From an uncultured Bacilli bacterium (GTDB taxonomy: Bacteria; Bacillota_I; Bacilli_A; RF39; UBA660): DNA of 42,707 bases. This document shows positions 18,097-35,972 of the stretch, in pieces. The stretch lies in NCBI GenBank assembly GCA_944331955.1, contig CALVIY010000008.1, positions 1-42,707 on the forward strand, read 5' to 3'. Within the stretch, counting starts at the first letter, position 1; each line of letters begins with the position of its first letter. The translations under genes and the position numbers were made by a program. Below the pieces are notes generated by a model, which was not told where the DNA came from, searched no databases, and saw nothing but the letters and a program-made list of their open reading frames with translations.

Positions 18097-18116
18097 ACTT
18101 GCGAGGAGTGATACCT

Positions 18117-18489: not shown

Positions 18490-18510
18490 ATGTGGCCGAA
18501 TAGTGTATTC
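18490..18510 (+). repeat. 21-bp subterminal direct repeat, left copy
   Basis: It begins ATGTGGCCGA and ends GTGTATTC. It matches 37356-37376 with a single mismatch and the same orientation. The two copies lie about 100 bp and 345 bp inside the element ends, so they are candidate integrase or Xis arm sites. CATAGTAAAA is also shared just upstream of both. An 8-bp inverted repeat (ATTCATTT/AAATGAAT, 18507-18541) overlaps this copy. Confidence 0.6.
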
Positions 18511-18584
18511 ATTTGTGTCCTAAAACATAGCATAAATGAATCCTTCGTATAACAAAACTAATATTATAAGAAAGGAGAGAGTGA

Positions 18585-20256: not shown

Positions 20257-20490
20257 ATTATTTAATAAAAATTTCTTATTTTTATAGTATAATATTTTTA
20301 GCATTTTAGAGATTAAATAAAATAATTTTGTCAAAAAAAGCGCATATAATGTCACAAAAGGTAGGAATATGACAAAATACGGCTTTTGGTCGATTGTGTA
20401 TTTTCAATGGTAAAGTAAAGTGCTAAAATAAAAATAGGTAAACAACTTATGGTAAAGGTAGTAATTTTAGTAAAAATAGGAGGTAGAAAA

Positions 20491-20913
20491 ATGAAAAATT
20501 TTAAAATTTTATTTGTACTTTTAGGTATTACAGCAATAACTAGTGTAGGTAATGTTTTTGCTGATACCACTATCAGAGTTTTAGATGGTACGAGGATACC
20601 AGCACATAATGGTAGCTTTACAACTCCTAGAGTTTCACTAGGTGCTGCACAGATGGGTTATGAGTATAACATGGTTAAAAGAGTATCTATTGATCCTAGT
20701 GGAGATGAATTGGATGCAAGAATCATAAAATATGATCCAACACAGCGCTCAAATTGGAAAGTATTAAAAAGTGGTAGCAATACTCTTCTTAGTACTAACC
20801 CAACATATACTTTCAGTAGTGGTAGTTTTAGTTTACAAATTGATTCACGTTGGTATTATACTAAAACAACAACATTAAAAACTGGAACTTGGTTACTAAC
20901 TAACGATCGTTAA
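20491..20913 (+). CDS. Secreted protein of unknown function with ABC cassette
   Basis: A 140-residue precursor with a clear signal peptide (KNFKILFVLLGITAITSVGNVFA) predicted to be cleaved after VFA, leaving about 116 residues. The mature part has no cysteine, is rich in S, T, Y and W, and looks beta-stranded (TYTFSSGSFSLQIDSRWYYTK). AGGAGG at 20480-20485 fixes the start at 20491 rather than further upstream. Three membrane proteins and an ABC ATPase follow. This resembles bacteriocin-plus-immunity layouts such as lactococcin 972 loci, but the sequence does not match that family as I know it. A toxin or surface-protein role is inference. Confidence 0.7.
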   Translation: MKNFKILFVLLGITAITSVGNVFADTTIRVLDGTRIPAHNGSFTTPRVSLGAAQMGYEYNMVKRVSIDPSGDELDARIIKYDPTQRSNWKVLKSGSNTLLSTNPTYTFSSGSFSLQIDSRWYYTKTTTLKTGTWLLTNDR

Positions 20914-20955
20914 TTAAAATAAATTCATAAGTTGTTTGCTTATTATGGAGGTTTT

Positions 20956-21783
20956 ATGTTAAAATTAAAAGAGTATTTTAGATCTAAAGAGTTTATTATA
21001 TCATTTGTTATTATTTTTATTTTTATTATATATAATATATGTGATTTTATGTATTATACAACTGGAAAGGTAGATGCCTCTTTTCCAGAATTAGTGAATT
21101 GTTTTAGTTTTTGGCGACATACTATGTATTACAATGGTGGTAGTATCATAATGTTTTTGAGTCCCTTTATAATTGCTCTTTTATCTATTGGAAATATATT
21201 TTATAAATTTAAAGGTAGCTATTTTAAAGACTTATTATTAAGACAAAGTTATAGAAAGACAATTATAAAGGAATTTTTATGTTCTTATTTAAAAGCACTT
21301 TTCCTATTTTTATTTATTTCAGTAATTGTATTTATTTTAGGATTATGTCTATTTCCAACAGATATACCAAATATTAGTTTCTATGATGTTTATATAAGCT
21401 TCGATTATGAAGGTGTCTCCAATCCATTCTTATACGTTTTTTTAGTGCATATTGCTTTGATATTGTATGTGCTTGTTATTTCTAATATTAGTCTTATTGT
21501 ATTAAGAATCACTAAAAAAATGACTGTATCTATTATTTTATCATTTGCTTTAGTCAATGTAATAAACTATGTTATAAGTAATATAAGTTCTTTACTTAGT
21601 AGTATCATTAAAAATAATGTAATCGTTGACCATCTATATTTATTTAATATATACGAAGGATATATGGTTCAATCAACAGTATATAATGCTTTGATAAATA
21701 TGGGAGTTCTTTCTATTATAACAACTTTAATTGTACTCTTCATTTATAGAAATAAAGAACAGGTGGTGCGAGATTTTGAGTAG
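20956..21783 (+). CDS. ABC transporter permease-like membrane protein 1
   Basis: A 275-residue protein with six probable membrane segments in the layout of ABC-2 type permeases: first near 14-34, then a pair near 75-90 and 115-140, then three after 165. An extracellular loop lies between segments 1 and 2. ATG 20956 follows TATGGAGG. Its last codons overlap the start of the next gene. It forms one operon with the secreted protein upstream and two further permeases and an ATPase downstream. Confidence 0.75.
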   Translation: MLKLKEYFRSKEFIISFVIIFIFIIYNICDFMYYTTGKVDASFPELVNCFSFWRHTMYYNGGSIIMFLSPFIIALLSIGNIFYKFKGSYFKDLLLRQSYRKTIIKEFLCSYLKALFLFLFISVIVFILGLCLFPTDIPNISFYDVYISFDYEGVSNPFLYVFLVHIALILYVLVISNISLIVLRITKKMTVSIILSFALVNVINYVISNISSLLSSIIKNNVIVDHLYLFNIYEGYMVQSTVYNALINMGVLSIITTLIVLFIYRNKEQVVRDFE

Positions 21784-22522
21784 TTTTATTAAAAATGTAT
21801 GTGATTATATGTGGAATACTTGGGAATATAAAGCTATTTTAGTATATCTTTTTATGGGAATATTCTTTATTACTTGCCAGTTTTCTGGATTAAATTACGA
21901 ACAAATGCTAATTTCATCTTTTACTAATAAAATATTTCTTGTAGTTATATTATATCCAAGTTTTGTTGCTATGTTTTATCTAGCATATCAATATATAAAT
22001 AAAAATTATAGTTTACTTTTACGTATGAGTTCAAGAAAGAAGTATGTTAGTATATCTGTTGTTACCATGTTAGTTATGGCAATGCTTTTATTCATACAGA
22101 TTATTATTATGTTATTAATTTGTTGTAACATTATTACACATAGTGATTTTAAAATAACAAATGAACTTAATTATAATGTCAACGATTTTATTATATTTAT
22201 TATAGAAACAATAAAAATTTTTGGTACTGTTGTTATTATAGGCTTGCTTACTTTATTACTTCAGATTAGTTTTAAAAAGCAAGGTGTTGTAGCAATATTT
22301 CTAATAGCCCTTTTAACGCTTATATTTTTTGGGGATAGAATGTATCCAACAGGCATTATTATATTAGATATTTTTAATCCTGGCTTTCAGTCACATGGAT
22401 ACACATTAACTAATAGTTTATGGATTTTAATAGGGTATGGACTTATTTATTTTTCATTAGTTATATCATTATTATATTTTGGGGTTAGAAAGAAAATAAA
22501 AAAGGTTGATATAGGGATATAA
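21776..22522 (+). CDS. ABC transporter permease-like membrane protein 2
   Basis: A 248-residue protein with about six membrane segments. I choose TTG 21776, eight bases after AGGTGGTG and overlapping the upstream stop, rather than ATG 21731, which would overlap the upstream gene by 53 bp. It shares the general layout of its neighbours but not obvious sequence. Confidence 0.7.
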   Translation: MSSFIKNVCDYMWNTWEYKAILVYLFMGIFFITCQFSGLNYEQMLISSFTNKIFLVVILYPSFVAMFYLAYQYINKNYSLLLRMSSRKKYVSISVVTMLVMAMLLFIQIIIMLLICCNIITHSDFKITNELNYNVNDFIIFIIETIKIFGTVVIIGLLTLLLQISFKKQGVVAIFLIALLTLIFFGDRMYPTGIIILDIFNPGFQSHGYTLTNSLWILIGYGLIYFSLVISLLYFGVRKKIKKVDIGI

Positions 22523-22524
22523 AT

Positions 22525-23217
22525 ATGTTGTTACTTATTAAAAGAAATTTATTAATTTTTTTATCCAAAATATGGTATTTAATTTTAGCAATGCTTTGTA
22601 TATGTATTTTCTTTTTTACCCAATATAATTCATTAAAATATTTTGATAATAATTTTATTTATATAATAAGTGGAGTAGATAATACTGTAGGAACATTTCT
22701 TCTTATTAGCCTTACATTGGTTATTAATTCAATTTATCTACTTTATACATATTATTTATATAGTTATGACATATTTAAATGCAAAGAAGCTATCTTCTTA
22801 AGAATAAGTTATAAAAAATGGATTACTGCTAATATAATAAGCAATTGTATCATTGATTTTATAATCTCTCTAATTACTATCACTCTACTATTAATATATT
22901 CTTTTGTAGTTAATACAAATGTAGAGATAGGAATAATAACTTTAATAATCATATATTTATCTAAATTAGCTATGCAGTTTATATATTTATTAATTATTAA
23001 GTTTACTGGTAACTACGGTAGTATTCTTATGTTTTTAATCTTACTAGTAGGTCTTTTATTTAAGACAAAATCTATAATTTATATATATAGTTTGACATCA
23101 TCATTAAATAACTACATAATACTTTTAATACTTTTAACAATTAATGTTGTGTTAATATTAATTAATATTTACTTAAAGGATAATAATTTAGTTATGAGAG
23201 GAGAAATGGAAAAATGA
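22525..23217 (+). CDS. ABC transporter permease-like membrane protein 3
   Basis: A 230-residue protein with six probable membrane segments and almost no soluble domain. It starts 2 bp after the upstream stop, and its final ATGA overlaps the ATPase start. Three permease-like subunits with one ATPase is unusual; lantibiotic immunity transporters (LanFEG) have two permeases. Confidence 0.7.
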   Translation: MLLLIKRNLLIFLSKIWYLILAMLCICIFFFTQYNSLKYFDNNFIYIISGVDNTVGTFLLISLTLVINSIYLLYTYYLYSYDIFKCKEAIFLRISYKKWITANIISNCIIDFIISLITITLLLIYSFVVNTNVEIGIITLIIIYLSKLAMQFIYLLIIKFTGNYGSILMFLILLVGLLFKTKSIIYIYSLTSSLNNYIILLILLTINVVLILINIYLKDNNLVMRGEMEK

Positions 23218-23846
23218 AAATTGAAGTAAAAGATGTAACAAAAAAGTTAGACAAAGAACTAGTGTTAAATGATGTTTCATTATCTTTAGATAGTGGGAAA
23301 ATATATGGTCTTGTAGGAAGAAATGGTAGTGGTAAAAGTATGCTTTTAAAAACAATTTGTGGTTTTGTAAAGCCTGATAAAGGTTATGTAAAAGTCGGAG
23401 GGGAAGATATTTATAAAAATAATACTTTTCCTAAAAAAACAGCTGCTTTAATAGAAAGACCCAACTATTTACCAGATTTAACTGGCTATGAAAATTTAAA
23501 AATGTTAGCTTCTATTAATGAAGTGATAGGTGATAAGGAAATATTAAATACTTTAGAAAAAGTAAATTTACTAGAAGAAAAAGATAAAAAGTTTAAAAAA
23601 TATTCTTTAGGTATGAAGCAAAAATTGGGTATTGCTCAAGTTTTGATGGAAAATCCTGATATTATGATTTTTGACGAACCGTTTAACGGTTTAGAAGAAG
23701 AAAGTGTAAAAAAAATAAGGAAGCTTTTATTAGATGAAAAGAAAAAAGGCAAACTTATTATAATTGCAACTCATATTAAAGAGGATATTAATGAATTGTG
23801 CGATATAATATATAGAGTGGATAATGGTAAGATTATCAATAAATAG
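23214..23846 (+). CDS. ABC transporter ATP-binding protein
   Basis: A 210-residue ATPase with Walker A GRNGSGKS (about 36-43), Q-loop region ALIERPNYLPDL, signature SLGMKQKLGIAQ, Walker B IMIFDEPFNGLE and the H-loop histidine in ATHIKED. The signature is SLGMK rather than LSGGQ, as in the BcrA/drug-export and lantibiotic-immunity type ABC ATPases. It is the last gene of the cassette, translationally coupled to permease 3 and followed by a bidirectional terminator. Confidence 0.85.
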   Translation: MKIEVKDVTKKLDKELVLNDVSLSLDSGKIYGLVGRNGSGKSMLLKTICGFVKPDKGYVKVGGEDIYKNNTFPKKTAALIERPNYLPDLTGYENLKMLASINEVIGDKEILNTLEKVNLLEEKDKKFKKYSLGMKQKLGIAQVLMENPDIMIFDEPFNGLEEESVKKIRKLLLDEKKKGKLIIIATHIKEDINELCDIIYRVDNGKIINK

Positions 23847-23858
23847 TATTTTGTCAAA

Positions 23859-23892
23859 AAACGTAGAGTTATTTTTTATCAACTCTACGTTT
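23859..23892. terminator. Bidirectional terminator
   Basis: AAACGTAGAGTT (23859-23870) pairs perfectly with AACTCTACGTTT (23881-23892), between the ATPase and the convergent HTH gene. The minus-strand stop lies inside it. Confidence 0.8.
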
Positions 23893-24138
23893 ATTTATTT
23901 TATGCTCTGGAAAATATGTAATAAGATCACTACTGCTTACAATATTTTTATTAGCAAGTCTGTTAATTTCAGAAGCTAATTTATCTAACATTACAATAGA
24001 TGGCTTTTTATGTGCATTTTCCATTTCTATATAATATTTTAAGTCAGTATGGGTCGAGTGTGCAAATTCTTCTTGTGTCATATTTAAGAGGAATCTATAG
24101 TATTTTAAATTGATAGCTAATATTTCTTGGCTAGTCAT
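23869..24138 (-). CDS. XRE-family HTH regulator
   Basis: An 89-residue protein with an HTH (NLKYYRFLLNMTQEEFAHST, about 10-30) followed by a recognition helix with Y-I-E-M-E-N. The basic tail KINKRRVDKK may help bind DNA. AAAGGAGG precedes the start on the minus strand. It stands between the ABC cassette and a small membrane protein and could regulate either. Confidence 0.8.
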   Translation of the reverse strand: MTSQEILAINLKYYRFLLNMTQEEFAHSTHTDLKYYIEMENAHKKPSIVMLDKLASEINRLANKNIVSSSDLITYFPEHKINKRRVDKK

Positions 24139-24313
24139 TTGCGTTTCCTCCTTTTATGAAAAAAGTATAGGCCAAATAGTTAAATAAGTCCCTAGGGCAT
24201 TAGCCCTGTTTTAATCTTGAAAAATTACAATCTATGTTTTATACTATTTTTGTAGCTGTTCTTTATTAGTATGTAAACATATTTCATATTTTATTAGAAC
24301 AAAAAGGAGTAAA

Positions 24314-24667
24314 ATGAAGAATAAAAAAATTGATATTATCATTACAGTAATGAAAATTTTATTATTAGGTATGATGTTATCTTTGATATTTATTATTGTT
24401 GATACTATTTTTATAAGTAAAGGTAATATTAAAAGTTATAATTCGTTTAGTGAATTTATATCAATACCTATAAATATCGCTTATATTGTAATGCTTGCAT
24501 TTGCATTTATAAGTGGAATTATTTTAATCTATTTTGCAATAGTAGAAAGTAGAAAATCACGACCTAATTATGATAAATATACTGTTGTAGAAAAAGACTA
24601 TTTAAAGGAACTTAAATCTAAAATAGAAGAACAAGAAGAAATAATTAAAAGCTTAAAAAACAAATAA
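24314..24667 (+). CDS. Small membrane protein with C-terminal coiled coil
   Basis: A 117-residue protein with two membrane segments (about 9-32 and 52-76) and a cytoplasmic charged tail (KDYLKELKSKIEEQEEIIKS) of coiled-coil type. AAAAAGGAG precedes the start. Family unknown. The region upstream (24139-24313) shows only a short AGGGC/GCCCT hairpin (24198-24211). Confidence 0.65.
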   Translation: MKNKKIDIIITVMKILLLGMMLSLIFIIVDTIFISKGNIKSYNSFSEFISIPINIAYIVMLAFAFISGIILIYFAIVESRKSRPNYDKYTVVEKDYLKELKSKIEEQEEIIKSLKNK

Positions 24668-24690
24668 TTAACAAAAAAATATAGATTTTA

Positions 24691-24719
24691 TTGACAAAGT
24701 GTTAACTAAGCTATATTAT
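24691..24719 (+). promoter_or_regulatory. Near-perfect promoter of the six-gene operon
   Basis: TTGACA (24691-24696) matches consensus, the spacer is 17 bases, and TATTAT (24714-24719) differs from TATAAT at one base. Transcription would start near 24726, just before the structured leader. Confidence 0.8.
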
Positions 24720-24725
24720 ACGAAT

Positions 24726-24806
24726 TAGTTATTTGTGAGATGTTATTTATCAACTTGCAAATAAGGGCTAATATCTCACAAAGGGATAATTAGCCCCTTT
24801 TTATTT
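24726..24806 (+). promoter_or_regulatory. Interlocked antiterminator/terminator leader RNA
   Basis: Stem A pairs TTTGTGAGAT (24732-24741) with ATCTCACAAA (24773-24782). Stem B pairs GGGCTAAT (24765-24772) with ATTAGCCC (24789-24796) and is followed by a T-rich run, so B is an intrinsic terminator. The order A-B-A'-B' is a pseudoknot, with B and A' abutting without a gap. The two stems could therefore stack or compete. A small hairpin TTATTT/AAATAA (24743-24764) fills the first loop. Only 6 bases join A' to B', which makes both full stems difficult at once and favours a switch. No known riboswitch class is recognised. Confidence 0.65.
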
Positions 24807-24831
24807 ATATATTATGGGAGGAGAGGAAAAA

Positions 24832-25365
24832 ATGAATGAATTTTATGTTGATAAGAAAGGTTATCAAAAATTATTAGAAGAAGTTGAAGAAGCTGATAGA
24901 AAGTTAAGAGAACACAGAAAAACAAGAGGTGATTCTTATTCTTCAAGTGCTGGTGATGGATGGCATGATAATTTTGATTTTGAAGAAATGGAAAGACAAG
25001 AAAGATTATTAAGTGGAGACTTACAAACAAAACAAGAAAGACTAAAAAATGCAATTATTGTTGACAAACAGGATAATGAAAATGTTGTGGATATTGGTGA
25101 TGTTTTATCTTTGACTTTGATTTTTGGAGAAGATGATGAAGAAACAGATATTTATAAATTATCTGGTACAGAAGCTTTTAGTAAAGATGAGGACTATAAT
25201 ATAGTTTCAATTAATAGCCCATTAGGACAAGCTATATATTTAAAACCAATAGGGGAAGTAGTTAAATATAAAGTTAATGGTAATTCATTTGATGTAAGAA
25301 TAAATGAAAAAGTATTAAATGAAGAAAAGCAAGAAACCAAAGTTCTTAATAAAGTAAAAAAATAA
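24832..25365 (+). CDS. GreA/GreB-like transcript-cleavage factor
   Basis: A 177-residue protein with an N-terminal helical hairpin and a C-terminal FKBP-like domain. The hairpin tip reads GDGWHDNFDFEEMERQ (about 44-59), corresponding to the GreA tip GDLKENAEY; acidic residues that hold magnesium in the RNA polymerase channel are kept. Gre factors stimulate RNA cleavage in backtracked polymerase. This is probably an accessory paralogue, not the housekeeping GreA: the tip is longer and it heads a metabolic operon on a mobile element. The start follows GGGAGGAGAGG, just after the leader terminator. Confidence 0.75.
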   Translation: MNEFYVDKKGYQKLLEEVEEADRKLREHRKTRGDSYSSSAGDGWHDNFDFEEMERQERLLSGDLQTKQERLKNAIIVDKQDNENVVDIGDVLSLTLIFGEDDEETDIYKLSGTEAFSKDEDYNIVSINSPLGQAIYLKPIGEVVKYKVNGNSFDVRINEKVLNEEKQETKVLNKVKK

Positions 25366-25377
25366 AAGGAGAAAGAT

Positions 25378-25947
25378 ATGAATAATATTCATTTTATTGC
25401 AGGTCATCATGGAGTTGGAAAAACATTTTTAGTAAATGAATTAAAAAAAGAAATTGATTTAACCCATTTTGATACTGGTCCTATGATAAGATCATTATAT
25501 GCTAAATCAAATACTGATAGTAGTTTTAAAAATTGGATATTATCAGGAGAGGAAAAATATGGCGTAGATTTTACTAATCAAATTTTATGTCAAGAAATGG
25601 AGCAAAACTTAAAAAATAGTTCATCTAATATTGTGATAACAGGTAATAGAAGTTTAGAAGGTATAATGTATATATCTAAACATTTTTCAATATCATTACC
25701 TAGTATTATTTATTTAGAGTCTCCATTTGTACTTTTAAAAACTAATTATGAAACAAGAGAATGTATAAAATTATCAGATTTAGAATTTGAAAAGAAACTT
25801 CTTGAGGAAATTAAAGCTGGTCTATATAACATAAGAGACTATGTCTTCGAACATCAAGATACTTGCCTTTTTGCACATAGAATAAATAATGATGATAAAA
25901 CAATAGATATAGTAAAAAGAAAAATATTAATAAAAGGAGAAAGATAA
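25378..25947 (+). CDS. P-loop nucleotide-kinase-like protein
   Basis: A 189-residue protein with Walker A GHHGVGKT (9-16), then FDTGPMIRSL, in the style of small nucleoside or cytidylate kinases (AAA_18-like), and a lid-like segment with ETRECIKLSDLEFEKKL. The substrate is not evident. It begins 12 bp after the GreA-like stop, and its stop overlaps the start of the U32 gene (TAATG). Position among U32, GHMP and PLP enzymes suggests it phosphorylates a pathway intermediate. Confidence 0.7.
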   Translation: MNNIHFIAGHHGVGKTFLVNELKKEIDLTHFDTGPMIRSLYAKSNTDSSFKNWILSGEEKYGVDFTNQILCQEMEQNLKNSSSNIVITGNRSLEGIMYISKHFSISLPSIIYLESPFVLLKTNYETRECIKLSDLEFEKKLLEEIKAGLYNIRDYVFEHQDTCLFAHRINNDDKTIDIVKRKILIKGER

Positions 25948-27122
25948 TGAAGATTTCATTAGCAACTAATTTTGATGATGAGCTTATTGATAAAATAAAA
26001 GGTTATCCAATATATGAAGTATATGGAAAAATGAAAGAAGATATACTAGGTGGAGGAAGACCTGATAATACTTTAAAAGATGTGTCTAAAAAAAGATTAG
26101 AGGAACATGTAAAAAAAGTAAGAAATGCAGGTTTTAAATTTAACTATTTATTAAATGGTAGTTGCCTATCTAATCATGAACAGTCTGAAAAATGGCAAAA
26201 AGAGTTTTTAAATTTTTTAACATATTTATCTAGTATTGGTGTAAATGCTTTGACTGTTACTAATCCTTTTATACTTAAATTAATAAAGAAAAATTTTAAT
26301 AGGTTTACTGTTAGAATTTCGACATTTGCTTGTGTTGATAATTATGAAAAAGCAAAATTTTGGGAAGATATGGGAGCAGATATAATATGTGTTGATTTTG
26401 TTAAAATCAATAGAGATTTTAAAACACTAAAATACATGGTAGATCATTTAAAAAAATCTAAAATAGAAATATTAGTTACTAATAGTTGTATAAAAAATTG
26501 TCCTTATATATACACACATACATCTGCATTATCTCATGCTTCTAATTGTTATGATGATAATAATAAATATGTAGATTGGTGTTTATTAACATGTCAAAAA
26601 CATCAATTAGATAATGAATATGAATATATAAAGTCTCCTTGGGTTAGACCAGAAGATATAAAGTATTACGAAGAAATCGGTATAGAACATTTTAAATTAA
26701 CAGAAAGGGATTTTCCAACAGATGAGTTAGTTAAAAGAGTAAAAGCATATACTGATAGAAATTATGATGGTAATTTATTAGATTTAATTCAAGGACATGG
26801 CTGGACTACAGGTTTTAATAGTGATTATAAAATAGATATGAATAAAAAATTTAAAACTAAAGAGGATGTATTAAATGAAATATATAAGATTAGAGGACTT
26901 GGATGTGAAAGAAAATACCCTAGACACATATTTATTGATAATAAAAAATTAGATGGTTTTGTTGAATATTTTGTTTCTAATAAATGTACTGGGCATTGTA
27001 ATGAATGTGGGTATTGTAAAGCTATTGCTAAAAAAGTAATAACTAATAAAGAAGACATTTTAAATTATTTAAAATATTTATATAATCTATATGATGAAAT
27101 GAAATTGATTAATAAAGATTAA
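25947..27122 (+). CDS. U32 peptidase-family Fe-S protein
   Basis: A 391-residue protein of the U32 type. A TIM-barrel-like half (ALTVTNPFILKLI, VRISTFACVDNYEKAKFWEDMGADIICVDF) is followed by a cysteine set NSCIKNCPY (about 179-185), SNC (about 201) and WCLLTC (about 210-215) that should hold a 4Fe-4S cluster. The C-terminus adds CTGHCNECGYC (about 347-358), perhaps a second metal site. Characterised U32 proteins (RlhA, TrhP, UbiU/V) are O2-independent hydroxylases of RNA or ubiquinone rather than peptidases. The substrate here is unknown. Confidence 0.75.
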   Translation: MKISLATNFDDELIDKIKGYPIYEVYGKMKEDILGGGRPDNTLKDVSKKRLEEHVKKVRNAGFKFNYLLNGSCLSNHEQSEKWQKEFLNFLTYLSSIGVNALTVTNPFILKLIKKNFNRFTVRISTFACVDNYEKAKFWEDMGADIICVDFVKINRDFKTLKYMVDHLKKSKIEILVTNSCIKNCPYIYTHTSALSHASNCYDDNNKYVDWCLLTCQKHQLDNEYEYIKSPWVRPEDIKYYEEIGIEHFKLTERDFPTDELVKRVKAYTDRNYDGNLLDLIQGHGWTTGFNSDYKIDMNKKFKTKEDVLNEIYKIRGLGCERKYPRHIFIDNKKLDGFVEYFVSNKCTGHCNECGYCKAIAKKVITNKEDILNYLKYLYNLYDEMKLINKD

Positions 27123-27134
27123 AAGGAGAAAAAA

Positions 27135-28850
27135 ATGATAGAAAGATTTCCAATATATAAAGCTGATTATATTTTTAATGAGTTTTATGGTAAAATAAGT
27201 AATAACAAATCATTGCAATACAAAGAAATTTCTATATCTTATCCTATAAGATTAGATGCAATGGCAATTAATCCGAGTGCTGTTTGTTACAACGATAGTA
27301 TGATTTTTACTCCTGGTGAAGTTGTAGTTTCGGCAAATAAATTTATAAAAGTGTATATTAAGGTAACTAATAAAAATGATTCCGTTGAAATAAGCGACAG
27401 TACTAGAAGAAAAGTACTAGTAAAACATGCTTATTATTTAATGAAAAAAGTAATTAATTTTACAAATGGTTTATATATAGATGTTGATGATAAAGATATA
27501 CCCAAACATTGTGGCTTTGGTAGTAGTAGTTCAACAATTTCAGCAGTTGCAGCTGCTATTAATGAAATGTTTTCACACCCTATATCAAATGAAGACCTCA
27601 TAAAATATTTAGCAAGCAATCATGGCGAAGAAATAGATGATAATAATGAAAATGATTTAAAAATGGTACAATGTATTGGTGGTGGAGCAACAGGAGGATT
27701 AACAGAAGCAGGAATTATTATAATAGCAGGTAAATCTACTACTATTGCAAAAATGAAATATAATGCAAAAATACTTATAGCATTACCTAAAGACTTTAAA
27801 GAACAAAATGCAGATGTTTTAATGAAAAAAGAAGAAGAAAATTTATGGAAGTTTAAAGAAACTGGAGAAAAGTATTCAAAAGATATAGCATACCATCTAT
27901 TACATAAGTCATTACCTGGAATGGTAAATGGTGAAATTAAAGATTTATCAGATATTGTTTTTAAATATAGGTTTGATATGGGAAGTATAGAAAATTGTTC
28001 ATTTGTTTATGAAAAAATGGTGGATTTAGCAAATAAATTAAGAGTTTTATATGAAGAAAAAAGATGTGACTTTTTAACTTTATCTTCAGTAGGACCAGCG
28101 TTCTTTGCAATAACAACAAATGACAAAGACTTCCACTATTGTAAAGAATATATGGAAAATTTAGATATGAAAGTTATCGAAGCAGAAATATATAATAATA
28201 TTTACAGAATAGATAATTATAAATTATCAACTGATTTTGACTACTGGAATAAACAGGAAGTTGCGACATCTTTTGCTGATAGAAAGCCTTCAAAATATAT
28301 TACTGATGTTATAGATAGTATTATAAATAAAAATGTAAAATGTATAGATATTGGCTGTGGTGGGGGAAGATATTCTAAATATTTAAAGAAAAAGGGAACT
28401 CAAGTAATAGCAGTTGATAAATATACAAATATGGCAAATAGTCTTAAAGAATATAATATAGAATTTATTAATGCTAGTTTTGATAATTTACCATTAAAAA
28501 ATGAAAGCTTTGATTTAATATTATCAATAGGTGTTCTCCATAATGCAACTACATTAAATGAAATAGAAAAAGCATTTTCCGAAATGAATAGAATTTTACG
28601 AAAAAATGGAATGATTATTTTATCAATTTTTACAAATGATGTAATAACAGATGATTTAATTCACAATTCTGGATATTTATATAATATTAAAAACAGACCA
28701 CCTATGGTACTTTTATCAAAGAAAAAAATTATAGAATATGTTGAACATAATAATTTCAAAATTATTAAAAAAATTGATGAGCATATAACTGATGTTGGTA
28801 ATGGTGGAAAAAGAAATGTGTATTCATTATTATTACAAAAAGAGAGTTAG
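27135..28850 (+). CDS. GHMP-kinase-like / SAM methyltransferase fusion
   Basis: A 571-residue two-domain protein. Residues 1 to about 365 are a GHMP-family domain with the glycine/serine phosphate loop CGFGSSSSTIS (about 126-136) and IGGGATGGLTEAG. The architecture recalls threonine kinase PduX and beta-RFAP synthase. Residues from about 385 are a class I methyltransferase with motif I DIGCGGGRYSKYL (about 404) and LSIGVLHNA. Fusing these two activities is unusual. It lies 12 bp after the U32 gene and 2 bp before a CobD/HisC-like gene. With that neighbour it could make and decarboxylate, or transaminate, a phosphorylated amino acid. Confidence 0.75.
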   Translation: MIERFPIYKADYIFNEFYGKISNNKSLQYKEISISYPIRLDAMAINPSAVCYNDSMIFTPGEVVVSANKFIKVYIKVTNKNDSVEISDSTRRKVLVKHAYYLMKKVINFTNGLYIDVDDKDIPKHCGFGSSSSTISAVAAAINEMFSHPISNEDLIKYLASNHGEEIDDNNENDLKMVQCIGGGATGGLTEAGIIIIAGKSTTIAKMKYNAKILIALPKDFKEQNADVLMKKEEENLWKFKETGEKYSKDIAYHLLHKSLPGMVNGEIKDLSDIVFKYRFDMGSIENCSFVYEKMVDLANKLRVLYEEKRCDFLTLSSVGPAFFAITTNDKDFHYCKEYMENLDMKVIEAEIYNNIYRIDNYKLSTDFDYWNKQEVATSFADRKPSKYITDVIDSIINKNVKCIDIGCGGGRYSKYLKKKGTQVIAVDKYTNMANSLKEYNIEFINASFDNLPLKNESFDLILSIGVLHNATTLNEIEKAFSEMNRILRKNGMIILSIFTNDVITDDLIHNSGYLYNIKNRPPMVLLSKKKIIEYVEHNNFKIIKKIDEHITDVGNGGKRNVYSLLLQKES

Positions 28851-28852
28851 TT

Positions 28853-29914
28853 ATGAAAAAAGTATATTGTAAATCTAAAAGAGATTATTTAGATGATTAC
28901 TCACATCTTGAGTCAAAAAATATAGATATGACACTTTCGGGTAAATATTTATATAAATATCCATTTAAATTTGTATATAAATATGAATATGATAAATATC
29001 CAAGCAGTAAAGAAATAAATAAATTAATTGATAGTATTGCTAAAAAATATAAAGTAGATCTATCTTCTAAATCAATAATATTAGGATCAGGGACAAATGG
29101 ATTAATACAAAATATTATAAAAGTCCTTTTTTCAAAAGATAAAGGTAATTTGGTAACGAGCTATCTTACATTTAATCAAGCGGAGTATGCAGTTAGTTCA
29201 TTAGGCTCTGAAACTAAAAGAGTTTATCTAAAAGATAATTATCAAATTAGTTTAGAAAATATGGATTATTCAATAGATAATAATACAAAATTAGTTTATA
29301 TATGTAATCCAAATAATCCAACTGGTATATTATTAAAGAATAAAGATATTATTAATTTTGCTAATCGCCATAAAAAAACTTATATAATAATAGATGAATC
29401 AAATTTAGAATATTCAAATGAAGAAAGTTTAATATCAAAAAAATTTCCCAGTAATCTTATAATACTGAAAGGTTTTTCTAAAGCATATGGATTAGCAAAT
29501 ATGCGAATAGGTTATATGGTGTGTTCTAAAACGTTTAAAAATAAATACTTAAAATTAACAACTGTTAATGAATTTTCTGGATTATCATGTATATTAGCAG
29601 ATAAAGTTATAAATAGTAATTATTATTTAAAAAATGTAGAATTAATAAAAAAAGAACGAATATATTTAAAAAATGAATTAGAACAATTAAATATTAAAAT
29701 CATTGAGTCAAAATCTAATACACTTATGACTGAAACAACATTTGATGAGAAGTTTATGATAAAATTAGCAAATAATGATATTTCTGTAGTACCCATAATT
29801 GATGAAAGAAAAAGGTTACATATAAGAATAGCAGTCCAAGATAGAAAGACAAATAGAAAATTTATACACAACCTAAAGAACTGTTTAGATAATGAAAAAA
29901 ATATGTTATTATAA
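28853..29914 (+). CDS. PLP-dependent HisC/CobD-like enzyme
   Basis: A 353-residue fold-type I aminotransferase family protein: GSGTNGLIQNI, CNPNNPTG (about 150-157), DESNLEYS, and the PLP lysine in LKGFSKAYGLANMRIGY (about K209). The arginine of RLHIRIAV is suited to a carboxylate. It is nearest in look to histidinol-phosphate aminotransferase and L-threonine-phosphate decarboxylase (CobD). No histidine or cobalamin genes are nearby. Next to a GHMP kinase, a CobD-like decarboxylation of a phospho-amino acid is attractive but unproven. Confidence 0.75.
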   Translation: MKKVYCKSKRDYLDDYSHLESKNIDMTLSGKYLYKYPFKFVYKYEYDKYPSSKEINKLIDSIAKKYKVDLSSKSIILGSGTNGLIQNIIKVLFSKDKGNLVTSYLTFNQAEYAVSSLGSETKRVYLKDNYQISLENMDYSIDNNTKLVYICNPNNPTGILLKNKDIINFANRHKKTYIIIDESNLEYSNEESLISKKFPSNLIILKGFSKAYGLANMRIGYMVCSKTFKNKYLKLTTVNEFSGLSCILADKVINSNYYLKNVELIKKERIYLKNELEQLNIKIIESKSNTLMTETTFDEKFMIKLANNDISVVPIIDERKRLHIRIAVQDRKTNRKFIHNLKNCLDNEKNMLL

Positions 29915-29935
29915 TAAAAAGGAGAGAATAAAAAA

Positions 29936-30517
29936 ATGGAAAAATTAGTTTACTTAACAACAAATCCTCATAAAGTTGAGGAGGCAAATGAATTTTTTGG
30001 AAAAAAATATGGATTTAATTTAGAAATAATGAATCCAGATTTTGAAGTGATTGAAATACAAGCTAAAACTTGTGAAGAAGTAGTTAAATTTAGCGTTAAA
30101 TATGCTGCTGAAAAATTAGGATGTGCAGTTTTAAAATCAGATTCTGGGTTATATATTGATGCTCTAGGTGGTCTTCCAGGACCATATAATGCTTATTTTG
30201 ATAAGCAAATTGGTATTGATAAGTTTTTAGAACTTTTTAAAAATGAGACTAATAGAAAGGCAAGAATAGAGCATTGTTTTGCATATTGCGAGCCAGGGAA
30301 GAATCCAATCGTATTTACTGGTGGAGGAACTGGTACTATTGCAAAAGAAGCAAGAGGAACAAGAGGAAGATGGCATGATAAATTTTATATACCAGATGGT
30401 GAAACAAAAACATTAAGTGAGTTAAGAGATATTGATTATGAATATGAAGCAAGTTTTTGGGGAACAGCAAAAGACGATTTTGCTAAATGGTATAAGGAAA
30501 ATAAATTAGAAAAATAA
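29936..30517 (+). CDS. HAM1/RdgB-like nucleotide pyrophosphatase
   Basis: A 193-residue protein of the ITPase fold, with the N-terminal TTNPHKVEEANEFF and the signature KSDSGLYIDALGGLPGPYNAYF (family form DSGL-x-VDAL-x-GxPGxYSA). RdgB/HAM1 enzymes hydrolyse dITP and XTP to monophosphates. The usual C-terminal SHRxxA motif is absent; the end reads FWGTAKDDFAKWY, so the nucleobase preference may differ. AAAAGGAG precedes the start. It is the last gene of the operon, before a terminator. Confidence 0.75.
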   Translation: MEKLVYLTTNPHKVEEANEFFGKKYGFNLEIMNPDFEVIEIQAKTCEEVVKFSVKYAAEKLGCAVLKSDSGLYIDALGGLPGPYNAYFDKQIGIDKFLELFKNETNRKARIEHCFAYCEPGKNPIVFTGGGTGTIAKEARGTRGRWHDKFYIPDGETKTLSELRDIDYEYEASFWGTAKDDFAKWYKENKLEK

Positions 30518-30523
30518 AGTAAT

Positions 30524-30564
30524 AAAAGAATAAGTTTAATAAGAATAAAATCTTATTCTTTTTT
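30524..30564 (+). terminator. Terminator of the six-gene operon
   Basis: AAAAGAATAAG (30524-30534) pairs perfectly with CTTATTCTTTT (30552-30562) and ends in T6. The internal AAGAATAA offers an alternative shorter hairpin. Confidence 0.8.
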
Positions 30565-30625
30565 GCTAGATAATTTTTATAAATAAAAAGTAGTCATTAA
30601 TCATTAATAACTACTTACGAATTTT

Positions 30626-30880
30626 TTAATCATCAAAGTCTTCTCTAAAATAGTCAGAGTCAAAAAAATCTTTAATTTCAATTTTTAAGGTTTTACATAT
30701 TTTGTAAATAATATAAGTACTAGGGTTTTCAACATCATTTGCAAGTATTCGTCTTAAGTTAGTCGGAGGTATAGCAGATAATTCTGCTAATCTATTAGGT
30801 GTATAATCATAATTATCGCATAATTCCAATATTCTCTTACTAACAGCTTCTTTAAATCTCATCTCTTTCCTCCTATACAA
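30626..30880 (-). CDS. XRE-family HTH regulator
   Basis: An 84-residue HTH protein (NRLAELSAIPPTNLRRILANDVENPSTYIIYKICKTL), the compact XRE type common on Bacillota mobile elements, with an acidic tail SDYFREDFDD. AGGAGG precedes the start on the minus strand. Confidence 0.8.
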   Translation of the reverse strand: MYRRKEMRFKEAVSKRILELCDNYDYTPNRLAELSAIPPTNLRRILANDVENPSTYIIYKICKTLKIEIKDFFDSDYFREDFDD

Positions 30881-31000
30881 GAAAAGTTTAGCAGAGAGGC
30901 AAGCAAAATGTTCGCCGAAATCGGTTGACTTTTCAAAAAATATAAGATAAACTTTAAGAGAATATTAATATATAAATTGTAAATGTATAAATTAATAAAA

Positions 31001-31255
31001 CTAAATCATATCTACTCTAGGAGGTAATGATTTAGCTTTCCTTGCAGTTTCTTTATTAAATAAATCAGCTGGTTCAATTCCTAAAACCTTGGCAATATGA
31101 TCAATATTATTACAGGTCATATTAGCTCTACCACTTTCAATTAGACTTATATAAGCAATTTTAAAATTACTAATATCAGATAATTGTTCTTGTGTAATTT
31201 TTAACTTATATCTGTAATATTTAGTATTAAGACCAATTAATTCCATTGAGTTCAA
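31001..31255 (-). CDS. XRE-family HTH regulator, possible orf9 analogue
   Basis: An 84-residue HTH protein (LKITQEQLSDISNFKIAYISLIESGRANMTCNNIDHIAKVL). Its position on the minus strand, upstream of the sigma-like gene, parallels the orf9 repressor of Tn916, which represses the transfer-linked transcripts. It is divergent from the orphan gene at 31375, with a 119-bp shared control region (31256-31374). Confidence 0.75.
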   Translation of the reverse strand: MNSMELIGLNTKYYRYKLKITQEQLSDISNFKIAYISLIESGRANMTCNNIDHIAKVLGIEPADLFNKETARKAKSLPPRVDMI

Positions 31256-31374
31256 TTAAATCATCTCCACTTCTTAACTTTTAAATTATATATATAAAAA
31301 TTATAAAGTTATAGATTAATAAAATTAATACCTATAAACATTATTAAGTTTTACATTAAAAAGGGGCGAATAAC

Positions 31375-32709
31375 ATGAATACTAAAATATATTTTCCAAT
31401 ATTAGTTCAAGAAACAATAGACATTAGGTATAATGAAATGCAAATGCCAAAAAATAAAAATATAATAATCACATTTAATAATTTTATAGAGTATTTGTAC
31501 AATTACAATTGTGTAACCTCATATAATATTGTTGCAATAATAAAAAAATTATTTTCTATTGATGACATTAAAGAAAAAATTCTAAATGGTAATTCTGATA
31601 ATTTTAATAAAATAAAAACATTAATTGATGATTGTTTAGCAAGTTTAGATATTAACAATATTAACAATAAATTAATGAAAGAAAGTTTATATTTTGACTG
31701 TAATTATAAACAAACATATGTAATTAAGAATGAATTGGATATAAAAGATTTATTTATATCAGAAATAATTAAGCACGACTATATGTATAAAGACTATCTA
31801 TTTATGTTTTTTAATGATTTTGATTATAATGAAATTAGAAAAAATTGTCATATTTTTAAAAAGAGTAGTAATACTCTCTATATAAAGTATGTTGTTGATA
31901 TATTAAATTATTTTAACAGATTGTTTTATGAAATTGGTTTATTATTTGAAAAGGATATTTTGTTTCCATATAATTTAGTTAAATATGGAATTGTTAAAAA
32001 TTATAACTTCAGATTTAAAAGTATTATAAATAAATTAGCTGGTGGATATTATAGAGAAAATAATAATGATTTTGGCATAGTACATAGACTAGCTTTTGAT
32101 ATAATTTCTGGGTTAATAACTATTAAAACTTTTTATTATATAGAGTTTGATGGATTTAATAATTGGAATTCATCTAAATATAGTAGGTTGCCTTCATCTG
32201 AATTATATGAGCTTATAAAAAGTACTTTTAGCAATATTACTTCAGATAAAATTATTCTTTTATATAGAATAAGTTCAGTACCGCGTAAAGAAATAAAAGA
32301 AAATGATATAAAAGAAATTGACTCATTTATTTTAGAATTTAAAGATAAAGTGAAGAATAGTGTTGTAATTAAGCAAGGATTATCAACGAATAACAGGACT
32401 AAAGTAAAACATATAATAGAATATTTAAAAAGCTATAAAGATAATAATATTGCAATATACGATATAAAAACAAATTTAACTAGTTGTGAAGAAAGAGAAG
32501 TTAGTATTATTAAATGTAAAATAAATGTTATAAAAGAAAATATTACATTTGATGTTGCCCTAAAATCTATTTATGATGATATTGTTTGGTATATTTATTA
32601 TAATAATAAAATAGTAGCAAAAGATATTTGCTTTCGTCCTAATGATTTTGATAGAGTAATTTATTTTATTAATTATAAATGGAAAAATTGGGTTAAATCT
32701 TTAAGATAA
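31375..32709 (+). CDS. Hypothetical protein, 444 residues
   Basis: A large soluble protein, very rich in N, I, K and Y, with no membrane segment or motif I recognise. It is mostly predicted helical in the first 280 residues, then mixed. AAAAAGGGGCG lies before ATG 31375. Its base composition is more AT-rich than the core genes. It sits between an HTH repressor gene and the sigma-factor leader, a spot that holds accessory cargo in Tn916-like elements. Confidence 0.6.
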   Translation: MNTKIYFPILVQETIDIRYNEMQMPKNKNIIITFNNFIEYLYNYNCVTSYNIVAIIKKLFSIDDIKEKILNGNSDNFNKIKTLIDDCLASLDINNINNKLMKESLYFDCNYKQTYVIKNELDIKDLFISEIIKHDYMYKDYLFMFFNDFDYNEIRKNCHIFKKSSNTLYIKYVVDILNYFNRLFYEIGLLFEKDILFPYNLVKYGIVKNYNFRFKSIINKLAGGYYRENNNDFGIVHRLAFDIISGLITIKTFYYIEFDGFNNWNSSKYSRLPSSELYELIKSTFSNITSDKIILLYRISSVPRKEIKENDIKEIDSFILEFKDKVKNSVVIKQGLSTNNRTKVKHIIEYLKSYKDNNIAIYDIKTNLTSCEEREVSIIKCKINVIKENITFDVALKSIYDDIVWYIYYNNKIVAKDICFRPNDFDRVIYFINYKWKNWVKSLR

Positions 32710-32848
32710 TAACAATAATCATTATTCCTTGACTATACTCTTTATTATTTTCTTAATTTGTATTATTATATATAGCAATAGCAATGCAAAAGCTATGCAA
32801 TAAGATGGTAAAGAGAGTAATGGTAGGGTGAATGGTAATAGTAGTGAT

Positions 32849-32879
32849 AACTAGCAATTAGACATTATTGCTAGTTTTT
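32849..32879 (+). terminator. Terminator downstream of the orphan gene
   Basis: AACTAGCAAT (32849-32858) pairs perfectly with ATTGCTAGTT (32867-32876), followed by Ts. The 140 bases between the orphan stop and this point show no gene. Confidence 0.8.
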
Positions 32880-32880
32880 A

Positions 32881-32976
32881 TAATGATTAAGATTTTTTAA
32901 GCAGTATTTCTATAATCATTAAATATAGGCATTGCTTTAGGAGTTTGTGCCTATGGGGGAGAAATACTGCTTAAAA
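32881..32976 (+). promoter_or_regulatory. Nested long-stem leader upstream of the sigma-like gene
   Basis: A perfect 17-bp stem joins 32895-32911 to 32960-32976. Inside it ATAGGCA (32925-32931) pairs with TGCCTAT (32948-32954). A competing 9-bp stem pairs TAATGATTA (32881-32889) with TAATCATTA (32913-32921), and the two outer stems cannot easily form together. AGGAG (32940-32944) precedes GTG 32947 and ATG 32953, which open a frame (MPMGEKYCLKYYNK then GFYALF) running through the next terminator. The layout recalls the tet(M) leader-peptide attenuator of Tn916, though no tet gene is present. Confidence 0.55.
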
Positions 32977-33011
32977 TACTATAATAAATCGTATAATTTC
33001 AATATAAAGTT

Positions 33012-33058
33012 AATCGGGTTTTATGCTCTATTTTTGAGTATAAAGCCCGATTTTTTTT
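33012..33058 (+). terminator. Very strong terminator/attenuator
   Basis: AATCGGG (33012-33018), TTTAT and CTC pair with GAG, ATAAA and CCCGATT (33036-33052) to give about 17 pairs, followed by T8. It stands between the leader above and the sigma-like gene and would stop transcription unless read through. Confidence 0.85.
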
Positions 33059-33086
33059 GTTGCTTTAATTGTAGAGATCCTCCTTT

Positions 33087-33117
33087 CTCCAATTGTTTTG
33101 GAAAAGACGATTGGAGG
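33087..33117 (+). promoter_or_regulatory. Hairpin hiding the sigma-gene ribosome binding site
   Basis: CTCCAAT (33087-33093) pairs with ATTGGAG (33110-33116), which contains the GGAGG of the sigma-like gene (33113-33117). Folding would block ribosome binding, so translation of the gene is probably controlled. Confidence 0.55.
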
Positions 33118-33121
33118 AAAA

Positions 33122-33595
33122 ATGGAAAAATTGCCTAAAAGAAGGAAATATAAAGACAATCCTTATAAAATAGAGCAACTTAATGATAATAAATATTCAG
33201 TAACTTTTAAAGATAATAAGAACACTACACATATTGTATATATTAGCCAAGATATTTATATGGCATTTAATGAGTTTGAACTTATAGATTTATCGCAACT
33301 AAATGAATTTGATAGACATATAGAACATTTAGATTTACGTGAAGAAACAATTAATAAACGTGCTATTCTTAAGCAAAAAAGTGTTGAAGAAGATGTAGAA
33401 GAATTAATAGAACATGAAAATTTAAAAGAAGCTATTAATAAATTATCATCTATACAAAAGCGTAGATTAAAAATGTATTATTTTGATGATATGACACTAG
33501 ATGAAATAGCTTTGATTGAAAAGTGTAGTCATCAAGCAGTTAGCAAAAGTATAAAAAAATCTTTAGAAGAATTGAAAAAAAATTTAAAAAGTTAG
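33122..33595 (+). CDS. Sigma-70 region 4-like protein of Tn916/Tn1549-type elements (orf7-like)
   Basis: A 157-residue protein opening MEKLPKRRKYKDNPYKIE. Its C-terminal HTH (SIQKRRLKMYYFDDMTLDEIALIEKCSHQAVSKSIKKSLEEL) is of sigma region 4 type. Such proteins occupy the orf7 place in Tn916 and the equivalent place in Tn1549 and promote expression of downstream xis-int or transfer genes. ATG 33122 is the start; the TTG frame at 33098 lies within the RBS hairpin. Its expression appears controlled by the terminator and SD-masking hairpin upstream. Confidence 0.8.
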   Translation: MEKLPKRRKYKDNPYKIEQLNDNKYSVTFKDNKNTTHIVYISQDIYMAFNEFELIDLSQLNEFDRHIEHLDLREETINKRAILKQKSVEEDVEELIEHENLKEAINKLSSIQKRRLKMYYFDDMTLDEIALIEKCSHQAVSKSIKKSLEELKKNLKS

Positions 33596-33625
33596 GTTGC
33601 AAAAATTGACTTAAGTGAGGAAATA

Positions 33626-33652
33626 GGTGAAAGGGATAAAATCTCTTTCACC
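33626..33652 (+). terminator. Hairpin after the sigma-like gene
   Basis: GGTGAAAGGGAT (33626-33637) pairs with ATCTCTTTCACC (33641-33652). The downstream sequence is only moderately T-rich, so termination may be partial. Confidence 0.6.
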
Positions 33653-33684
33653 TGATTTTGTTGTATAAAACAAAATATTGATCT

Positions 33685-33713
33685 TTGACAACTTTTAATC
33701 AAGTCATTAAAAC
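33685..33713 (+). promoter_or_regulatory. Promoter of the structured RNA
   Basis: TTGACA (33685-33690) with a 17-base spacer and TAAAAC (33708-33713). Transcription would begin near 33719, where the RNA's closing stem starts. Confidence 0.65.
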
Positions 33714-33716
33714 GTT

Positions 33717-34022
33717 CCTATTATGTTGAAAACAACAAGCACGTTAGCAAGTACGCTTGACGATAAATACTTGGCTATAAATTTTAAGTGGCTCTTAAAA
33801 CTGCAATGATCAATAATAGGTATAATGATACTCCTGCCTAGCCATAGTCACAAACAATGGGGGCAGTCTTGAGAGGACCTCAAGATGGTGAAAGTCCAGT
33901 GAATTGATTAGCTATCAATATTTAATGACTTCCTATACTGAGGGCGAGACAATATCAGTATTAACTAAATAAATTCAAAGTGAGAACTTAACATACCTTT
34001 AGTAAAAGTTCTCACTTTTTGT
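33717..34022 (+). ncRNA. Structured RNA gene, about 300 nt, class unknown
   Basis: There is no ORF here, but the stretch is densely structured. The 5' end CCTATTAT (33717-33724) closes with ATAATAGG (33813-33820). Hairpins: GTTG-AAAA-CAAC (33725-33736); TGCC/CCAT with ATGG/GGCA (33835-33865); CTTGAG/CTCAAG (33868-33884); ATTGAT/ATCAAT (33903-33919), set inside AAGTC/GACTT (33892-33931); ATACTGA/TCAGTAT (33935-33961). It ends in a 13-bp terminator. GGTGAAAGTCC and GAGGGCGAGAC look like conserved single strands. No group I or II intron core, tmRNA, RNase P or SRP signature was found. It lies between the sigma-like gene and xis. Confidence 0.65.
33977..34022 (+). terminator. Terminator at the end of the structured RNA
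   Basis: AAAGTGAGAACTT (33977-33989) pairs perfectly with AAGTTCTCACTTT (34006-34018), then Ts. It lies immediately before the orf8-like gene, so that gene requires read-through or a separate promoter. Confidence 0.85.
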
Positions 34023-34042
34023 TTTTAAAGAAAGGACAAATT

Positions 34043-34285
34043 ATGAATAAGAAAATATCAGATATAAAAAGAATAACAAAAGATTATTTAATAACTATTA
34101 AGAAAATAGAAATAACAGAAATGATGGTAAAAGAAACTAGCAAAGCTAAAGCTATAAATAAAGTTGATACTCTTCTTAATAACTGTATAGAAAATAATGT
34201 TAATTTAAGTAAAACTTTTAATAAAAAACCAATTTTTAAATATCACGCAACTATTATAACAGAAAAGGATTTGTCAAATGTATAA
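34043..34285 (+). CDS. Small orf8-like protein of the integration module
   Basis: An 80-residue basic protein (MNKKISDIKRITKDYLITIKK...). AAAGGA precedes ATG 34043. By position (after the sigma-like gene, before xis) it corresponds to orf8 of Tn916, though the sequence was matched by place only. Its stop overlaps the next start (ATGTATAA). Confidence 0.6.
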   Translation: MNKKISDIKRITKDYLITIKKIEITEMMVKETSKAKAINKVDTLLNNCIENNVNLSKTFNKKPIFKYHATIITEKDLSNV

Positions 34286-34382
34286 ATTAAAAAATTGCAC
34301 ATTCGTAAATTGCCAAGATACTTGGTATGTTGTAAGTGCTATAGCAAATGACTCTATCAAAAGGACTTTGAAATATGAATGA
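34278..34382 (+). CDS. 34-residue ORF coupled to xis
   Basis: MYKLKNCTFVNCQDTWYVVS and 14 more residues. It starts in the last codons of the preceding gene and ends on TGA 34380-34382, inside the first codons of xis. Overlap at both ends suggests translational coupling, as for orf10 of Tn916. It may act only as a coupling device. Confidence 0.5.
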   Translation: MYKLKNCTFVNCQDTWYVVSAIANDSIKRTLKYE

Positions 34383-34569
34383 TAAATTAGAGAAAAAAGT
34401 TTATAGTGCTTCAGAAGTTCAAAAAATATTAGGATTAGGAAGAAATAGGCTTTATGACTTTTTAGACAAAGTTTATAAAGAACAGTCGCCTTTTAGAGTA
34501 CTAAGATTTGGGAAAATATATAAAATTCCAAAACAACCATTTGATAATTGGCTAAATAAATACTTATAA
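34375..34569 (+). CDS. xis: Excisionase (Xis)
   Basis: A 64-residue protein with a winged-HTH of the Tn916 Xis/HTH_17 type: YSASEVQKILGLGRNRLYDFLDKV, then FRVLRFGKIYKIPKQPFDNWL. Tn916 Xis has 67 residues and bends DNA at the element ends to favour excision. It precedes int by 19 bp. Confidence 0.85.
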   Translation: MNDKLEKKVYSASEVQKILGLGRNRLYDFLDKVYKEQSPFRVLRFGKIYKIPKQPFDNWLNKYL

Positions 34570-34588
34570 GATTAGGAGATGTTATATA

Positions 34589-35776: not shown

Positions 35777-35972
35777 AGTTACTAGATGTTGTAGTTATAT
35801 ATTTATATATAAAGAAAACGACAAAACTTCTAAATATAAAGTTGTATTAAGAAAAGAACTAAATAATAATAAAGTATGTAGAAAAATATATCAATTTAAT
35901 GATTATAAAGCAGCTAAAAATATGTTAAAAAATATCAAAAAGGAATATAAATGCTTAACGAAACAATTTTAA
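35766..35972 (+). CDS. Small protein between two integrases
   Basis: A 68-residue basic protein (SYIFIYKENDKTSKYKVVLR...) that overlaps both neighbours. Its short beta-rich start resembles the arm-binding region of an integrase more than a helix-turn-helix, so it could be a recombination helper. No assignment. Confidence 0.55.
   Translation: MKPKVTRCCSYIFIYKENDKTSKYKVVLRKELNNNKVCRKIYQFNDYKAAKNMLKNIKKEYKCLTKQF

Follow-up and report, generated by a model that had tools for sequence, protein, structure and literature searches.

A 42,707-nucleotide stretch of DNA from an uncultured Bacilli bacterium (assembly GCA_944331955.1, contig CALVIY010000008.1, positions 1 to 42,707; hereafter the window) carries, on a mobile element in uvrB, an operon of six genes. 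These encode, in order, a GreA-like RNA polymerase factor, a P-loop kinase, a U32-family Fe-S protein, a fusion of a GHMP-superfamily domain with an S-adenosylmethionine (SAM) methyltransferase, a pyridoxal phosphate (PLP) enzyme resembling HisC and CobD, and a HAM1/RdgB-like nucleoside triphosphate (NTP) pyrophosphatase (Table 1). The original prediction had grouped these genes from the DNA letters and open reading frames (ORFs); all six were confirmed on the forward strand, each with a family match, and so was their tight spacing, the junctions measuring 12, -1, 12, 2 and 21 bp (four of the five at most 12 bp). That they form one transcription unit was likewise upheld by the 11/12 promoter at the start and the A+T-rich terminator at the end, the former standing out in a scan whose weak sites (63 in total) did not exceed those of shuffled sequences. 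No described counterpart of the operon was found, and nothing in the analysis contradicts the earlier statement that this gene set corresponds to no described pathway.

Table 1. Features of the operon and its carrier element (positions in the window)
Feature	Position	Strand	Basis
Mobile element in uvrB	18104..37454	.	Bracketed by a 5' uvrB fragment (18104-18392) and the intact gene (37455); near-identical copy in genome G024
Promoter, TTGACA-17-TATTAT	24691..24719	+	Sole 11/12 match, best in region
Attenuator-like leader: upstream hairpin, alternative hairpin (24735-24779), terminator-like hairpin with T-run (24765-24796)	24729..24796	+	Folds, z -3.5 to -3.9
Possible leader ORF, 17 codons, MLFINLQIRANISQRDN, weak start context	24740-24793	+	Sequence
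GreA-like RNA polymerase secondary-channel factor, tip GDGWHDNF keeping an acidic pair	24832..25365	+	Pfam GreA_GreB C-terminal domain; alignment to GreA 1grj
P-loop kinase, nucleoside monophosphate (NMP)/adenylate-kinase type (GHHGVGKT)	25378..25947	+	AAA_17/AAA_18; weak adk/UMP-CMP kinase matches
U32-family Fe-S TIM-barrel protein, phage-type subfamily, extra C-terminal CxxxCxxCxxC	25947..27122	+	PF01136; phrog_5757 (E 2e-35); 7 invariant Cys; fold
Fusion: GHMP-superfamily domain, residues 1-370 (beta-RFAP synthase/ForT-like), and SAM methyltransferase, residues 385-560	27135..28850	+	Family models, profile comparison; 59% identical to G040 fusion
PLP enzyme, aminotransferase I/II fold, HisC/CobD-like, under both cut-offs	28853..29914	+	Family models; 48% identical in G040
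HAM1/RdgB-like NTP pyrophosphatase, no SHR motif	29936..30517	+	PF01725 (E 3e-32); 90% identical chromosomal genes in genus
A+T-rich intrinsic terminator-like hairpin with T-run	30524..30564	+	Fold, z -3.6; missed by G+C-based terminator scan
Two integrase-type genes on the element	34589-35776, 35951-37249		Named by eye from ORFs

Conservation and mobility of the operon

In a relative within the family (G040), genes for the GHMP-methyltransferase fusion, the PLP enzyme and the U32 protein (the last 66% identical) lie next to each other in a changed order. Because a second genome holds the same three genes in another arrangement, the clustering of this core is not due to chance. The original prediction would have abandoned a joint function had the neighbours differed at every homologous locus; they are retained for the core, and differ for the RdgB-like and GreA-like genes, both absent from the G040 operon. 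Since the RdgB-like protein has chromosomal homologues of about 90% identity in the host genus, and GreA-like proteins are common in it, the operon consists of a conserved core and two genes that come from that genus. In G040 the next gene after the trio encodes a protein that resembles the window kinase weakly in its N-terminal part (E 4e-4), lacks the P-loop and is fused to an M23 domain; it is likely a degenerate relative of that kinase. The G040 operon continues (contig L013, 10424-15924) with this M23 peptidase fusion, a kinase and a glycosyltransferase, and with NDK-like, CYTH and 5'-nucleotidase-like proteins (the last three named by eye). Among 291 family genomes searched the GHMP domain is present in three, one of which (G596) has a truncated version that lacks the phosphate loop; there it adjoins methyltransferase, CYTH-like, S-adenosylmethionine-decarboxylase-like, aminopropyltransferase-like and thymidylate-kinase-like genes (L102, 594-4980; most named by eye).

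Between the promoter and the first gene lies the attenuator-like leader, on which the original prediction was silent. Folding (z about -3.9 at 24729-24796) identified hairpins before the terminator-like hairpin that are mutually exclusive, and the possible 17-codon ORF overlaps the terminator-like hairpin; transcription thus probably passes an attenuator before reaching the first gene. The G040 operon leader (L013, 6358-6505) has the same layout, with a 36-codon ORF that has a good ribosome-binding site and ends inside the terminator hairpin, and both leaders may be translation-coupled attenuators.

The element is flanked by a uvrB repeat (18116-18391 and 37454-37729, 83% identity). Positions 21405-37715 are approximately 99.96% identical in G024, another species of the genus, with seven differing positions over two contigs, while uvrB beyond the shared stretch and the left flank are approximately 89% identical; for this reason the passage of the operon-bearing element between two gut-type bacteria was recent. 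The left part of the element (18827-21404) is absent from the shared G024 stretch. The uvrB-bracketed element and its near-identical copy bear out the suggestion that the operon is mobile cargo, and we conclude that the operon is real, rare, conserved and recently mobile. The same element also encodes a small secreted precursor-like protein, three membrane proteins and an ABC ATPase (20449-23846), which resemble bacteriocin or immunity cargo by eye, and a pemK RNA motif (Rfam RF02913) lies at 33822-33902.

The GHMP-methyltransferase fusion and the PLP enzyme

The term 'GHMP kinase', applied to the fusion in the original prediction, is the name of a fold, and kinase activity of this domain is doubtful. 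The view of the protein as a homoserine-type kinase was revised after its C-terminal half alone was found to match only beta-RFAP synthase models (NF040726 and TIGR00144). Additionally, the G040 protein matches the beta-RFAP synthase model in one collinear stretch (36-319 of 327). Profile comparison with hhalign gave 93% (E 2e-7) for RFAP synthases together with ForT, 53% for RFAP synthases without ForT and 78% globally for ForT alone, as against 33% locally and 0.1% globally for the homoserine kinase ThrB. For these comparisons a consensus probe written for the purpose retrieved the residues of ForT from the PDB, and annotated RFAP synthases were taken from plasmids.

In ForT, Arg19 is needed for phosphoribosyl pyrophosphate (PRPP) and His99 binds pyrophosphate (PMC8183095), while in the RFAP synthase MTH0830 His98 was modelled at PRPP (PMC6787355). 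Arg19 and His99 align with R39 and H125 of the window protein, which are invariant in both operons and of which the aligned homoserine kinases have neither. Of the other PRPP ligands of ForT, Thr106 and Ser142 are conservatively replaced by S132 and T186, and Arg135 and Ser139 are not conserved. The window domain shares with the C-nucleotide synthases ForT (formycin) and PyfQ (pyrazofurin) the GHMP fold, the PxRL and PxHxGFGS motifs, the LSxxGPAxFAxT end and a collinear C-terminal half (only the ForT sequence being compared), but it is fused to a methyltransferase and differs in its neighbours and host. With the beta-RFAP synthase of the methanopterin pathway it shares the phosphate-loop His, as well as the full-length collinear match in G040, although the methanopterin genes found around a genuine synthase are absent here. 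No RFAP synthase was found in 295 genomes of the phylum, and scans of viral contigs with the fusion and with the GHMP profile returned no relatives. Matches on plasmids cover at most 36% of the fusion and, among the matches listed, lie in its methyltransferase half.

One of the two ideas in the original prediction was a phospho-amino-acid route like that of PduX and CobD, with phosphorylation by the GHMP protein and decarboxylation by the PLP enzyme. In such a route threonine or serine would be phosphorylated and then converted to an amino-alcohol phosphate. The two genes are indeed adjacent and the PLP enzyme is CobD/HisC-like; however, no PduX model was among the family matches, and the C-terminal half of the GHMP domain resembles beta-RFAP synthase only. 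The PLP enzyme scores far below the CobD cut-off (128.9 against 290.55) and that of HisC (170.5 against 276.6), and has Val in place of the first of the two C-terminal Arg residues of HisC. Such a route would also leave the U32 protein, the NMP-type kinase and the RdgB-like and GreA-like proteins unexplained, and we regard it as unsupported and very improbable.

The U32 protein and its phage relatives

The U32 domain scored 41 bits against a cut-off of 22.4, and the predicted structure is a TIM barrel whose top fold match is the U32 protein 5d88. The subfamily is mostly viral, occurring in T4-like and other phages, and was found in two of 392 phylum genomes besides G024 and G040. The seven Cys, including those of the C-terminal motif, are invariant between the window protein and its phage homologues; the T4-like protein (RB69ORF050c type, phrog_5757) shares this Cys set, is 28-30% identical over 85% and has an NMP-type kinase nearby, although the phage gene lies among arabinose and glycosyltransferase genes. 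In metagenomic phage contigs, genes of the subfamily adjoin deoxy-NMP-type kinases, glycosyltransferase-like genes and sugar-nucleotide genes (named by eye). A scan of viral contigs with the U32 protein alone returned no relatives, none was found on plasmids, and a literature search on the phage gene returned no paper.

Studied U32 proteins are required for the C5 hydroxylation of RNA pyrimidines, with prephenate (PMC6599085). The window protein shares the U32 TIM barrel and apparently conserved Cys in the motif region with these O2-independent hydroxylases (TrhP and RlhA), but falls in a distinct subfamily marked by the C-terminal CxxxCxxCxxC. The essential C170 and C177 of TrhP (PMC6599085) may have as counterparts the invariant C181 and C185 of the window protein, which lie in the matching region but are spaced differently. 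A role of the phage U32 protein in making 5-hydroxy-dCMP was set aside, as this step in Mosigvirus has been assigned to a thymidylate-synthase relative (PMC13390438); the phage parallel hence leaves the U32 substrate unfixed.

Two further contexts of phage-type U32 genes were observed. In G092 (L014, 3741-10180) an anti-phage dCTP-deaminase-like gene, a GP88-like gene, a guanylate kinase-methyltransferase fusion, a gene for a 248-residue protein and a U32 gene stand in a row, possibly as a new defence cassette. In a metagenome-assembled genome of Nitrospirae (L011, 8060-12017) a U32 relative (35%) adjoins methyltransferase-like, cyclase-like and ketosynthase-like genes (by eye), which suggests ring hydroxylation in an aromatic pathway.

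The window operon could itself be a nucleotide- or nucleic-acid-modifying module for defence or counter-defence, in which the U32 protein, kinase and methyltransferase change the cellular or phage nucleotide pool. The largely viral distribution of the U32 subfamily, the position of the G092 gene after the deaminase-like gene and the guanylate kinase-methyltransferase fusion, and the carriage of the operon on a mobile element agree with this, as does KomB, a solved Ham1 relative and a component of an anti-phage system. Against it, none of the window proteins matches a defence model convincingly over its full length (the mad2 match of the fusion spans the methyltransferase only), no effector, sensor or nucleic-acid-binding part is present except GreA, and the G040 operon has no defence neighbours; a defence module is thus considered quite improbable.

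A possible pathway and competing explanations

The reading that we favour, with a probability of roughly 0.4, is that this mobile biosynthetic operon makes a modified nucleotide-like small molecule. The product is probably nucleotide-like because the supposed kinase looks closer to the rare enzymes that attach a ring to ribose through a carbon-carbon bond. In such a pathway the GHMP domain, acting like ForT and beta-RFAP synthase, would couple a ring acid to PRPP and so form a C-ribosyl 5'-monophosphate. The ring would be built or decorated by the methyltransferase half of the fusion, the PLP enzyme and the U32 protein (the last through O2-independent hydroxylation), and the P-loop kinase would add phosphates. 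The RdgB-like enzyme might then clear stray triphosphate, and the GreA-like factor might rescue polymerase after incorporation of the modified triphosphate. The analysis establishes the order and families of the genes, the conservation of the core, its recent transfer and the RFAP synthase/ForT-like features, whereas substrates, sequence of steps, product and protective roles are inferred. A nucleotide-analogue pathway with these two proteins as self-protection was the second idea of the original prediction and fits better than the PduX-CobD route. Its nucleotide part gains from the C-nucleotide-synthase-like GHMP domain and from the occurrence of phage-type U32 genes beside NMP-type kinases; the protective part stays conjectural, both proteins being missing from the sister operon. 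A fuller version, in which an anaerobic, genome-reduced bacterium would carry a mobile, O2-independent pathway for a C-nucleotide antimetabolite, with the C-ribosyl synthase-methyltransferase fusion and the phage-type U32 protein as its enzymes and with immunity conferred by the polymerase rescue factor and the enzyme that clears triphosphate, is considered unlikely.

Several observations weigh against a nucleotide-like product. The N-terminal half of the GHMP domain matches homoserine kinase models best, with slightly higher scores, and the segment before GGG also resembles their DN...GG region. In place of ForT R135, T138 and S139 the window protein has Q, G and G, its acceptor pocket differs (ForT K263 and Q266), and the RFAP synthase score is 33-35 bits against a curated cut-off of 328 (NF040726). 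Owing to these replacements and this score, the domain is judged to be RFAP synthase/ForT-like rather than a member of either family. An AlphaFold model of the fusion (two sequences) had a mean confidence (pLDDT) of 46 and was unusable. Furthermore, chorismate synthase was not detected in the host genome (94% complete), so that the host probably cannot make the prephenate that studied U32 enzymes need (PMC6599085), and the Mosigvirus hydroxylation step and the absence of the RdgB-like and GreA-like genes from G040 count in the same direction. Finally, only two independent operons are known.

The GHMP domain may instead be a true small-molecule kinase, the operon then yielding a non-nucleotide metabolite. 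In that case an amino-acid or amino-sugar scaffold would be worked on by this kinase together with the PLP enzyme, the methyltransferase and the U32 protein as a hydroxylase. The N-terminal homoserine kinase scores, the absence of the ForT ligands of the PRPP 5'-phosphate and the aminotransferase-like character of the PLP enzyme would suit this. Conversely, Arg39 and His125 fit RFAP synthase and ForT and not kinases, the C-terminal half matches RFAP synthase families only, and the operon already has a separate P-loop kinase. This explanation is regarded as unlikely.

To our knowledge, C-nucleotide synthases of the GHMP fold occur only in methanopterin synthesis and in the formycin and pyrazofurin producers. 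If the nucleotide-like product is correct, a mobile C-nucleotide synthase in gut-type bacteria, possibly coupled to O2-free hydroxylation by a U32 protein, would indicate that a class of nucleoside analogues has gone unrecognised, and the role of the phage-type U32 subfamily would become testable. The gene set is unusual and open to experiment, the case being built on two operons.

The Ham1 domain of the RdgB-like protein scored 112.6 bits against a cut-off of 22.5. The absence of an SHR motif had been taken as a hint of a non-standard nucleotide; EASFWGTAK stands in its place, and the same is seen in chromosomal genes, approximately 90% identical, of four further species in the genus. As the SHR-less form is thus genus-wide, the hint is weakened and the lack of the motif was rejected as a mark of a special nucleotide. 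The protein shares the Ham1 fold with RdgB and KomB, but is a genus-level chromosomal variant without SHR. Overexpression of HAM1 guards yeast from nucleotide analogues (PMC5940212, PMC3792807), which agrees with the favoured reading. The GreA C-terminal domain of the first gene product scored 31 bits against a cut-off of 26.9, other GreA models remaining below theirs; its GD..HDN tip aligns with GD..EN of GreA and the acidic coiled-coil tip is kept.

The assembly may be partly accidental, the element having added to a core pathway a GreA-like and an RdgB-like gene of housekeeping type from the host genus, with no joint function. The high identity of the RdgB-like protein to chromosomal genes, the abundance of GreA-like relatives in the genus and the lack of both genes in the G040 operon are consistent with this; against it, both lie in one transcription unit with short gaps, and the GreA-like gene comes first after the promoter. 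We regard this as a credible explanation, though short of an even chance, and one compatible with any function of the core.

GreA-like proteins with the GDGWHDNF tip are common in the genus and at three loci (L083, L088 and L090) are encoded directly downstream of a large helicase, presumably HelD (named by eye), with which they possibly form a conserved polymerase-rescue pair. A cluster in G071 (L091, 2893-9423) contains two GreA-like genes, a thymidylate-kinase-like gene and a long U32 gene.

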